From positions 62,001 through 126,000 of the forward strand of contig CAIRZB010000084.1 in the NCBI GenBank assembly GCA_903882935.1: a stretch of DNA of 64,000 bases, given 5' to 3'. The DNA comes from an uncultured Parafilimonas sp. (GTDB lineage Bacteria > Bacteroidota > Bacteroidia > Chitinophagales > Chitinophagaceae). The notes under the pieces are model-generated. The model had not been told where the DNA came from and made no database searches. It saw only the letters and a list, made by a program, of their open reading frames with translations. Shown here piece after piece: positions 58,313-62,539 of the stretch (positions within the stretch are counted from its first letter, which is position 1; each line of letters starts with the position of its first letter). The position numbers and the translations under genes are program-made.

Positions 58313-61300
58313 ATGCTTACCTACAGGCTAACCATTGCAATTTTGGCATTTCTATATTCGGTTACCCCAATATCTGGGACCAAACTAACCACTGGGGAGG
58401 TATTTGAGCAGCCAGCCCGAGGCATTGTTGTTACAAATAGCAACTTTGGTTACAACATTGGTGCAACCGCTATTGACCGTGCCGAAACCAATACCACGCC
58501 CGCACCTCCCCCGCCCGACACCACATTTACGTTACCTGTTGTTTTCCACATCATCAGTGCAACTCCTTCCGCCATAACCGACCAGCAAATAAAAGCCGGG
58601 CTGCAAGACCTAAATGATGCGTTTGGCAAAGCCGGCGCGTATTCGGCCAGCAAAGGGGCAGACACTAAGATTAAATTTTGCCTGGCCCAAAAAGACCCCG
58701 ACGGAGGCAATACCACCGGCATTACCCGAACCACCTATTTTTTTGGCGAAGACCTTAACCCGGATATTGAGGACGACCGGCTAAAAAATTTAATTCAATG
58801 GGACCCATCCCAGTATATAAATATTTGGTACGTGCCAACTATGCACCTACCAACCTTTGAAACATATGGTTGCGGCCATTGGCAACGTGGCTTTGTGGGC
58901 GGCTATGCCACCCAGCCGCCGAATGCCGGTGCCAAAGACGGCATTGTGGTTACCGGCTTTGGCGTGTTACTGGCAAGCTGCATGGGTACCTACCTAAGCC
59001 TGTTACCAACCTTTAATGGTGGGTGTAACAACAACAACTGCCATACAGACGGAGACCAAGTGTGCGACACACCGCCAGAAGATGTTTACTACAGCAACAG
59101 CCCAGACTGCAATAACCCGTCCAACTCCTGCTCAACAGACACACTCTCAGGGTTTAAAAAGGATGTACCAGACCAGAAAGCAAACTTTATGGACCGCGGC
59201 AACCAGGCCTGCCAAAATGAATTTACCCAGGGTCAAGCAACACGCATGTACCGTTGCATACTTACACAACGCAGCGGGCTGTTGGCCAACAAGTGCGACC
59301 CGCCTTGTGCCGCCAACGCGGTGGCCAATTTTACCCGTAGCAATGCGTATCCCCTGCCGGGCGATAATGTAGTGTTCACAAATAACTCTTTTGGGGCTGC
59401 ACGCTACCAATGGCTGGTTGACGGCACGCCCGTTTCAACCAATACCAATTTTTCTTACAATTTTGCAACCGCAGGTAAATACAAAATAACCCTCAAAGCC
59501 TATAGTACAGGCGCAACCTGCTACGCCGCCTATACCGATTACGTTACCGTAACCTGCGGCGTTACTGCAAGATTCTATACCGATAAAAAAACAATCGCTT
59601 CCAAATACCCGCTTTATGTTGACAGTATTAGGTTTACCAACACCTCTACCAATGCCACATCGTTCAAATGGCTTATGGCTAACAACAAAAGCATGACGGA
59701 ACAGGTAGTGTCTACCCAAAAAAACTTTACCTATGTGTTTAAGAACCCGGCCAATTACACCGTACGCCTTATTGCCACAAACGGCAACTGCACAGACACC
59801 ACCGAAACACTTACCATTACTACCTACGACCCCACCCAGGACGGAGTTTTGTATGTAACCAACGTTAACTGTTATCAGCAAACAAAGCTGCAAGTGAGTT
59901 TTTTTGTGTGCAACTACGGTTACGCCACCATACCGCCCGGTATACCGATATCATTTTACGATGCCGACCCCAGTACCAGCAATGCACACAAACTATCACC
60001 CACCTTTATACTGCCCGACTCCATACAGGGGCTTTGTTGCGGCTACAGTTACATACAAACAATTGATGTAGGCAAAAGGGGGCTAAACCAACTGTATGCG
60101 GTTTTTAACGACAGCGGCACTACGATGCCGCTGCACCTGCCAAACACCCCTATGGCAGAGGTAAACTACGATAATAACATCCAAAACCTTAGTGGTTTTC
60201 AATATAAGGCCTTTATTAAGCCGCCTACTGCAGTAATGCAGCCGGGCGACACCTTGCAATTGAGTGCTAATGCATCGCATGACTATACCCAGTCGTATGC
60301 ATGGTCGGCAGACACAGGCCTAAGTTGCATCAACTGCGCAAACCCTTTTTTTATTGCCGATACCCAAAATGTTACAAAACAGGTGGTAACCACCAGTGGT
60401 TATGGCTGTACAGACACCGCATATTCAACCATCAAAATACCACCCTACAATGATTTTTCGGTAACCTTGGATGGGGTGGAATGTGCGGCAAACGACAGCG
60501 TACATGTTAGTTTTACCCTTACCAACCACTTTAAACGGGGTGTTATACCCAAAGGGCTTTCGGTTGCTTTTTATAATGGCAACCCAACAGCGGGCAACGC
60601 CAATTTGCTACCGCCCGTTTTTTTTGTGCAAGACACTGTGGCGGCTAAATCGGCATCGTTCAGCTCCGTTGTACAAAACATACACATCGGCAGTACCATT
60701 TATGCCGTGGTAAACGACAGCGGCACTACCAAACCGTTAAAACTGCCTAACACCCCATTTACGGAGAGTGACTATACGAACAATATTACGTTTGCCCCCT
60801 ACATTAGGCTAAAAGCAACGGCGTACCCCACGCAAGCAATACTCGAGCCCGGAGACACCTTGCAGATGTACGCTAACGGTTCGCCTGGCCACACAGCTTC
60901 GTACGTATGGGCACCACCGCTTAACCTTAGCTGCACCCATTGCGACACCACCTACCTTATTGCCGACTCAAACCGAGTAAAGCAGGTTACCGTAACAAAC
61001 GACTACGGATGTATTGATACAGCCAACGTGGTAGTTAAAGTACCACCTGCAAACGACTACACCATTGTGGTTAACGATATTGAATGTGCAGCAAACGACA
61101 GCCTGTATGTAAATTTTACCCTTACCAACCATTTTAAAAGAGGGGTGATACCGGCAGGTATAACCGTGGCATGGTACAAAGGCGACCCAACCATTGGCGG
61201 GGCCACTTTGTTAAACCCGCTTTTTGCAGTACGGGATAGCGTTAAGGCGAAGCAGGCCACCTTTAGCGCGTTTATCAAATCGGCTGGCCCGGGCAATGTG

Positions 61301-62539
61301 TATGCGGTGGTAAATGATAGCGGTACTACCATGCCGCTGGTGCTGCCCAATGTTGTGCACCTGCCCGAAAAAGATTACGGCAACAACATAACCCCATACA
61401 ACTACCAACCCCAGCAAGTGCTTTTACAACCTGCGGACACCACAGTTTTGCGAAAAACATCGTTTGTTTACCGGGTGCTTACCCCCATTATTAAGCCCGC
61501 CAGCACCACCTGGCAAACCAGCACCAATTACACCCTTAGTTGTTACAATTGCGATGCTCCGTTGGCAACTATTTTTGACAACGACACGGTAATAATGCAC
61601 ACAGCCAATCAATTTGGCTGCCTCATAGAGGGTAGAAGCACGGTTAAAATACTGTTGCCCGACATGACTGTGCAGTTGTTGCACAACGACTGCTACACCA
61701 ACGACAGCACCTTGGTTTTCTTTAAAATATGCATGGGCAATAACTATGATACCGTTTTTGCAGCCCTGCCGGTTTCGTTTTATGATGGCACTCCCTCCTC
61801 CCCGGCATCGCATTTGTTGTTGCCGGTGTTTTATACCAAGCAAGCTACCGCTAACAACTGCGATACTTTTTTCTGTTCGGTAGCCTCGCCAGCCACCCAT
61901 ACTTTATACGCATCCGTAAATGACAAGGGCCGGGCAGGTTCGCCGTTAAAAGCGTACGACGAAACCGATTATGCAAACAATACCGATGTAGCCAACACAG
62001 TACCTTTTGTTGCATCAATTGCGCCCGCAGACACCAGCGTACCGTACGGCACAACACTGCCATTGGTTATAAAAGCCACCGGCAAGGTTTCAACCGAGTT
62101 ATGGCAGCCCGCACAATACCTTACCTGCACCCAGTGCATGGCAACCATGGTAACCCCGCCATACACGGTAAATTACACAGCCATTGTGCGCAACCAATAT
62201 TTTTGCGTGGATACTGCCTACACCATCATACGAACCTACCGCGGCACCGACATAAACGTTCCATCGGCCTTTACACCCAACGGCGATGGTTTTAACGATG
62301 TATTTTATGTGCTTGCAGGCAAAGGAGCAGCAATCATCAAAAATTTTGCCGTGTTTAACCGGTGGGGAAACATCGTTTTCCAAAAAAGCAATGTAATACC
62401 CAACACCCCCGCCAATGGATGGGATGGCAACATAAAAGGCATAAGAGCAGAGGCGGGTACGTACGTTTACCAACTAACCATGCAGTTTGAGAATGGGTTG
62501 GAAAAAACATACAAAGGAACAGTGGTATTGGTTAAGTAG
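58313..62539 (+). CDS. Large secreted protein: degenerate pappalysin domain, PKD and repeat domains, T9SS type B sorting domain
   Basis: The 1408-residue protein has a signal peptide, then an M43 pappalysin-like domain (~60-340: LPVVFHIISATPS, GGCNNNNCHTDGDQVCDTPPE, NFMDRGNQACQNEFTQGQATRM). The zinc helix HExGHxxGxxH reads SCMGTYLSLLP at residues 222-232, so the domain should be inactive. Two PKD-like domains follow (~345-500). Then come four ~203-residue repeats starting near residues 505, 709, 910 and 1114, each pairing a CARDB-like domain (ECAANDSVHVSFTLTNHFKRG in copy 2) with a short Ig-like unit containing a CxxC pair. The end (NVPSAFTPNGDGFNDVF onward) is a type B T9SS sorting domain. 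It is probably a surface adhesin. Confidence 0.9.
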   Translation: MLTYRLTIAILAFLYSVTPISGTKLTTGEVFEQPARGIVVTNSNFGYNIGATAIDRAETNTTPAPPPPDTTFTLPVVFHIISATPSAITDQQIKAGLQDLNDAFGKAGAYSASKGADTKIKFCLAQKDPDGGNTTGITRTTYFFGEDLNPDIEDDRLKNLIQWDPSQYINIWYVPTMHLPTFETYGCGHWQRGFVGGYATQPPNAGAKDGIVVTGFGVLLASCMGTYLSLLPTFNGGCNNNNCHTDGDQVCDTPPEDVYYSNSPDCNNPSNSCSTDTLSGFKKDVPDQKANFMDRGNQACQNEFTQGQATRMYRCILTQRSGLLANKCDPPCAANAVANFTRSNAYPLPGDNVVFTNNSFGAARYQWLVDGTPVSTNTNFSYNFATAGKYKITLKAYSTGATCYAAYTDYVTVTCGVTARFYTDKKTIASKYPLYVDSIRFTNTSTNATSFKWLMANNKSMTEQVVSTQKNFTYVFKNPANYTVRLIATNGNCTDTTETLTITTYDPTQDGVLYVTNVNCYQQTKLQVSFFVCNYGYATIPPGIPISFYDADPSTSNAHKLSPTFILPDSIQGLCCGYSYIQTIDVGKRGLNQLYAVFNDSGTTMPLHLPNTPMAEVNYDNNIQNLSGFQYKAFIKPPTAVMQPGDTLQLSANASHDYTQSYAWSADTGLSCINCANPFFIADTQNVTKQVVTTSGYGCTDTAYSTIKIPPYNDFSVTLDGVECAANDSVHVSFTLTNHFKRGVIPKGLSVAFYNGNPTAGNANLLPPVFFVQDTVAAKSASFSSVVQNIHIGSTIYAVVNDSGTTKPLKLPNTPFTESDYTNNITFAPYIRLKATAYPTQAILEPGDTLQMYANGSPGHTASYVWAPPLNLSCTHCDTTYLIADSNRVKQVTVTNDYGCIDTANVVVKVPPANDYTIVVNDIECAANDSLYVNFTLTNHFKRGVIPAGITVAWYKGDPTIGGATLLNPLFAVRDSVKAKQATFSAFIKSAGPGNVYAVVNDSGTTMPLVLPNVVHLPEKDYGNNITPYNYQPQQVLLQPADTTVLRKTSFVYRVLTPIIKPASTTWQTSTNYTLSCYNCDAPLATIFDNDTVIMHTANQFGCLIEGRSTVKILLPDMTVQLLHNDCYTNDSTLVFFKICMGNNYDTVFAALPVSFYDGTPSSPASHLLLPVFYTKQATANNCDTFFCSVASPATHTLYASVNDKGRAGSPLKAYDETDYANNTDVANTVPFVASIAPADTSVPYGTTLPLVIKATGKVSTELWQPAQYLTCTQCMATMVTPPYTVNYTAIVRNQYFCVDTAYTIIRTYRGTDINVPSAFTPNGDGFNDVFYVLAGKGAAIIKNFAVFNRWGNIVFQKSNVIPNTPANGWDGNIKGIRAEAGTYVYQLTMQFENGLEKTYKGTVVLVK

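Follow-up and report, generated by a model that had tools for sequence, protein, structure and literature searches.

A probably inactive pappalysin (M43) domain in a probably exported Parafilimonas protein and the apparent repeated loss of zinc ligands among its relatives

The window, by which we mean the whole stretch of 64,000 nucleotides analysed here from an uncultured Parafilimonas sp. (Chitinophagaceae), contains on its forward strand a gene (58313..62539) coding for a 1408-residue multi-domain protein in an open frame with no internal stops. A probable signal peptide, whose end was set by eye, is followed by a stretch devoid of cysteines (residues 23-71, 58379..58525) and then by an M43 domain (residues 72-326, 58526..59290), which is predicted to assume the pappalysin fold. 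Within this domain lie the former zinc-binding motif SCMGTYLSLLP (residues 222-232, 58976..59008), which corresponds to HEMGHYLGLYH in orthologs, and the Met-turn NFMDR (59183..59197), where Arg295 takes the place of the Tyr that follows the Met-turn. Further downstream on the same strand are two PKD domains (residues 332-505, 59306..59827; Pfam boundaries 349-396 and 426-503), a region of repeated modules of about 200 residues (59828..62212), which were recognized as off-diagonal self-matches with period and borders drawn by eye and match no Pfam family at its cut-off, and a C-terminal domain of the CHU_C/TIGR04131 type associated with type IX secretion (residues 1314-1405, 62252..62527). The profile match to Peptidase_M43 (Pfam PF05572) covers residues 163-314 with an E-value of 3.8e-7 and 30.6 bits, above the cut-off of 23, and phmmer searches recovered the PDB sequences of mirolysin (3.3e-14) and ulilysin (1.7e-13). 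The C-terminal domain scores 56.9 bits against the CHU_C cut-off of 27 in Pfam and 44 bits against the TIGR04131 cut-off of 35 in NCBIfam. As the same genome encodes one SprA (TIGR04189, 2358 bits), the type IX component that was searched for, and 23 matches to TIGR04131, type IX export of the window protein is likely, in agreement with an earlier note made from the bare sequence of the window; the flanking motifs quoted there (GGCNNNNC, DGDQVCDTPPE and NEFTQGQATRM) are present as given.

The window genome is 99.4% complete and shows one match to PF05572, namely the window gene itself, which rules out that its product regulates or assists another detectable M43 enzyme in the same cell. The annotation of the neighboring genes in the window yielded no functional link, and a conserved operon was likewise rejected, as the six neighbor proteins had no match at an E-value of 1e-5 in the flanks of 12 ortholog loci. 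In the two available congeners (G001 and G002, 63% and 69% complete) there was no match to the window M43 domain, and the gene is absent from the syntenic place in both (L293 and L294). In the former other ORFs occupy the space between the same sigma-factor and amidohydrolase neighbors, and in the latter the sigma-factor side was the one seen. This implies that the gene is dispensable within the genus.

The altered motif aligns without gaps to that of orthologs with about 60% identity, and all three zinc-binding His residues and the catalytic Glu are replaced in it, as the earlier note had observed when it described an M43 domain deprived of its ligands in an intact frame. Two further losses extend that description, namely the Tyr after the Met-turn, most orthologs having NFMDY, and the Cys that acts as the cysteine switch in the propeptide; the Tyr preceding the third His of the motif is also replaced. 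The column of the Tyr after the Met-turn is a weaker criterion of activity, in that 13 of 172 motif-intact domains carry another residue there, nine of them Phe. By a hand count from the codons, the substitutions H>S, E>C, H>T and H>P together require at least nine base changes, and so the conversion of HExxHxxGxxH to SCMGTYLSLLP is not a slip of sequencing or a frameshift: these changes are in frame and the flanks are conserved. A replacement zinc helix elsewhere is ruled out too, since neither HExxH nor HxxxH occurs anywhere in the 1408 residues; there are only four His (H79, H178, H189 and H244) between residues 60 and 331. Deprived of its zinc ligands and catalytic Glu, and lacking both the cysteine switch and the Tyr after the Met-turn, the window domain should, as judged from its sequence and the model described below, be unable to hold a catalytic zinc or to cleave in the manner of pappalysins, and its designation as a pseudoprotease in the earlier note thus appears apt.

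The rest of the domain is conserved. Over residues 72-331, 12 motif-intact orthologs share 81 invariant columns, from which the window protein departs at six (H222, E223, H226, Y231, H232 and Y295), all of them within the active site or adjoining it and comprising five catalytic residues and one neighbor in the motif; outside the active site it changes none of the 75 invariant columns. Since the orthologs were picked for an intact motif, the invariance of the four motif columns follows from that choice; among the other 77 invariant columns the window protein changes two, one of them being the Tyr. The hypergeometric probability is 2.3e-7, a post hoc value for a finding that was chosen for its motif, and in a leave-one-out comparison each of the 12 intact orthologs deviates at 0 to 7 out of 81-88 invariant columns. 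The domain is 62-64% identical to those of three orthologs, much as the members of four intact pairs are to each other (64-71%), which speaks against a general decay. The model, for which 57 relatives were used, has a mean pLDDT of 87.9 and a pTM of 0.89 (an earlier one from 7 sequences, with a pLDDT of 33.6, was unusable), and shows a helix at residues 218-227 in the place of the active-site helix. With this model Foldseek retrieves ulilysin first (5.2e-16), and VIA-align superimposes it on mirolysin (6r7w) with a Z-score of 25.7 over 234 residues at 2.4 A and on ulilysin (2cki) with a Z-score of 25.4. The domain is thus modeled as a full pappalysin fold. Part of the cleft framework is also kept in the window protein, such as a GGYA stretch that we placed at the upper rim of the cleft by eye from the mirolysin alignment, and is altered in the proteins of genus g57 discussed below.

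The named relatives of the window protein come from Chitinophagaceae and from other metagenome-assembled genomes labeled Sphingobacteriales. We compiled a census of M43 domains from the best matches to the window protein or to L046 together with hand-picked ranks, which is accordingly not a random sample. Its 197 ORFs collapsed to 184 distinct ones when the first 200 residues of the domain were identical, and 183 had a readable motif, 172 of them intact and 11 altered; L009, which ends before the motif, and L071, which has no N-terminus, were excluded from counts that need those parts, and the states of motif, Tyr and Cys were all taken from a single automatic alignment. Five species of genus g57 possess altered copies that also lack the prosegment: L046, L065, L066 and L067 carry SLMGSYLGLKY and variants with the Met-turn NFMSL, and L051 carries FLVAGYLGLHT with NFMSQ. 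The altered copy L065 (G422:C194) has a break in its reading frame downstream of the PKD region, beyond which the sequence stays open in a different frame; this may reflect either an assembly error or real decay. A third altered group, from genera g84 and g101, includes L094 (QEMGHALSLFN), L159 (QEMGHALSVFN), L114 (QQMAKALSVLP) and L160 (QQMAYALSVLY), none of which has the switch Cys; the first two retain the Glu, the second His and the Tyr and have lost two of the three His, and their inactivity is less certain. In L092 (G225:C3:43789-44535, forward strand) only the Glu is changed, to Gln. It forms a tandem M43 pair with L056, in which L092 has HQMGH with the zinc ligands and the switch Cys, and the other copy is intact. 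An order-level search added 27 new loci (L132-L158), which returned the window once more and 26 motif-intact domains. A search of viral_contigs with query A1 found no relative; among IMG/VR contigs 94 stretches, of which 80 were fetched, encode M43 relatives, some on contigs longer than 100 kb.

A tree of 182 rows requires four changes of motif state, and a more careful tree of 38 rows, from which the Asp294 column was dropped in place of the Tyr295 column (a matter of one column), requires two, with none of 200 bootstrap trees giving one. A single clade of the window protein and g57 is rejected by the AU test (p 8.7e-7), which rules out one loss common to the two; such a loss is contradicted also by the motif-intact L043, L068 and L069, which group with g57. 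As read from these alignments and trees, zinc ligands have been lost in at least three lineages of the M43 family of the window protein, and the latch, as we call the cysteine switch, has been lost in each.

In mirolysin, according to excerpts of PMC6949598 and PMC8259862, the lost residues correspond to the three His ligands of the zinc, to Glu225 and to Tyr286, and Cys23 of the prosegment binds the zinc and thereby confers latency. Most orthologs have a Cys-containing prosegment in the region corresponding to residues 23-71 of the window protein, which has no switch Cys there. Of the motif-intact domains with an N-terminus, 165 of 171 show a Cys at the corresponding position of the alignment, so that the switch Cys is absent from 6 of 171 intact domains as against 10 of 11 altered ones, the exception among the latter being L092. 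The Fisher p of 1e-11 for this association ignores relatedness and is therefore inflated; a test of independent pairs was underpowered, with four pairs, about two of which have contrasting Cys states, in the same direction each time (median sign-test p 0.5). L068 and L069, sisters of the altered g57 copies, lack the switch Cys and keep HExxH, L068 having already lost the Tyr, and in the g57 tree they adjoin the inactive clade with a support of 100. From this placement the latch was probably lost before the ligands in the g57 lineage. The motif-intact L038, L048, L064 and L099 are likewise Cys-less (L048 wholly lacks the prosegment), with ligand loss not nearby in the tree or none seen, and indicate that loss of the latch does not always lead to loss of the ligands; L038 is not a supported sister of the window protein.

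The inactive domains can be examined for selection where synonymous sites are not saturated. By the NG86 method, dN/dS is 0.10-0.17 for the M43 domain in six g57 pairs, in the same range as the adjoining PKD domains (0.08-0.18), and 0.049, 0.083 and 0.119 for the pairs L094-L159, L114-L160 and L094-L114, respectively. With dN/dS at 0.05-0.17 wherever it is measurable, the inactive g57 and g84/g101 domains are under purifying selection and hence maintained. The remaining pairs of altered domains are saturated, as is the comparison of the window protein with its orthologs, so that selection on the window protein may be judged from column conservation. The same dN/dS values would arise from purifying selection on the stability of the fold alone.

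Pseudopeptidases are best studied in animals, and ADAM22 is an inactive metzincin that has been kept as a partner-binding receptor. The model of the window domain resembles its metzincin fold (5y2z and 8hpy; VIA-align Z-scores of 14.0-14.1), and the PDB titles of these structures name a complex with LGI1. Unlike the window protein, ADAM22 is an animal membrane protein of the ADAM family (M12), and its loss of activity must be separate. Closer at hand, mirolysin and ulilysin share with the window domain the fold over nearly its whole length and the Met-turn NxMD, and Cys residues of the window lie, by eye, near the places of the two mirolysin disulfides described in excerpts of PMC6949598. In contrast to both enzymes, the window domain is without zinc ligands, catalytic Glu, Tyr after the Met-turn and Cys-switch prosegment, and is embedded in a 1408-residue protein with PKD, repeat and type IX domains. 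Cytophagalysin, as presented in excerpts of PMC11674741, is comparable in that it too is a large bacterial pappalysin of many modules, with Ig-like ones following the catalytic domain; unlike the window protein it is a zymogen of an active enzyme, and its prosegment has a Cys that corresponds to Cys23 of mirolysin.

Based on these observations we propose that the window protein is an exported pseudoprotease maintained as a binding or structural module, and we consider it probable that it has been retained because its pappalysin domain binds something without cutting it. Having kept the fold and the columns of its active relatives and shed the catalytic parts, the N-terminal domain might use the old cleft to bind a partner, most likely a peptide or protein, without cleaving it, while the PKD domains and repeat modules would hold it out from the cell. 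In this the proposal is modeled on inactive metzincins such as ADAM22, and it takes up the suggestion of the earlier note, equally conditional, of a binding or structural role at the tip of the protein. A broader version, which we regard as possible though somewhat doubtful, is that secreted pappalysins of Chitinophagaceae have repeatedly turned into zinc-free binders along a stereotyped route, the latch being lost before the zinc site or along with it, and that the window protein is one end point. Excerpts of PMC8259862 describe Cys23 mutants of mirolysin as being activated within minutes and mostly self-digested, with about 7% surviving. By analogy, an active enzyme without its latch would tend to destroy itself, and this self-digestion may have made inactivation favorable, with the cutting apparatus being removed and the fold and part of the cleft being kept.

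The main rival to the binding proposal, which we judge unlikely but of some weight, is that the enzyme became dispensable, its active site drifted and the domain persists only for the stability of the exported protein. Selection for stability alone would be expected to keep the fold-level columns and not the catalytic ones, as is seen, and the inactive copies do share the full-length layout with PKD domains, repeats and type IX domain. Such drift is harder to reconcile with the dead helix of four g57 species, in which 8 of 11 positions are identical at a dS of about 0.7-1.2, including three replaced ones (Ser for the second His, Lys for the Tyr before the third His and Tyr for the third His). 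The convergence of at least three lineages also speaks against it, as does the consideration that a dispensable terminal domain could simply be lost.

It is far less probable that the inactivation is recent and the gene, having no retained role, is on its way to becoming a pseudogene. The earlier note had reckoned with this case if orthologs were found with an intact motif, and the nearest ones fetched (L032-L035 and L038-L045, 57-64% identity, two of them fetched twice) are indeed all intact, which places the loss in the lineage of the window protein; the absence of the gene from the locus in both congeners points the same way. However, a mere recent mutation does not fit well, because the motif has undergone at least nine base changes, the Tyr and the switch Cys are lost too and the rest is conserved, and because the same conversion is also fixed elsewhere, in lineages under purifying selection. 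The open frame of 1408 residues, the 75 of 81 invariant columns kept and an identity to orthologs about equal to that between intact ones are equally at odds with a decaying gene. That the protein is still an enzyme, with another metal site or a non-metal mechanism built on Ser222, Cys223 and Thr226, is hardly credible: Ser and Cys are potential nucleophiles and excerpts of PMC10211241 mention pseudoenzymes with migrated catalytic residues, but HxxxH is absent, residues 60-331 offer only the four His named above, and this combination of residues is not found in the other inactive lineages.

Inactive peptidases are already known as a kind. In excerpts of PMC3650047 substituted HExxH motifs are reported as occasional in about half of the surveyed HExxH metalloprotease domains, and its main text has no mention of M43, PF05572, pappalysin or ulilysin; similarly, excerpts of the pseudometallopeptidase review PMC11266112 assign the inactive mammalian members mostly to M12 and M14, and its main text does not mention M43, pappalysin or PAPP-A. 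Among the matches listed from the open-licence PMC literature, as represented by titles and the beginnings of abstracts, there was no M43 pseudoprotease, and as far as could be seen an M43 pseudoprotease is new. The finding carries a warning for annotation: both L046 and the window protein score above the M43 cut-off of Pfam and would be called metalloproteases, while neither should cut by the M43 mechanism. The proteins described here form a set of bacterial exported pseudopeptidases for which there are close relatives with an intact motif as well as graded intermediates, and in which ligand loss has apparently arisen at least three times. Such a set allows one to ask in which order the parts are lost as an enzyme becomes a binding protein, and whether loss of the latch drives the conversion.
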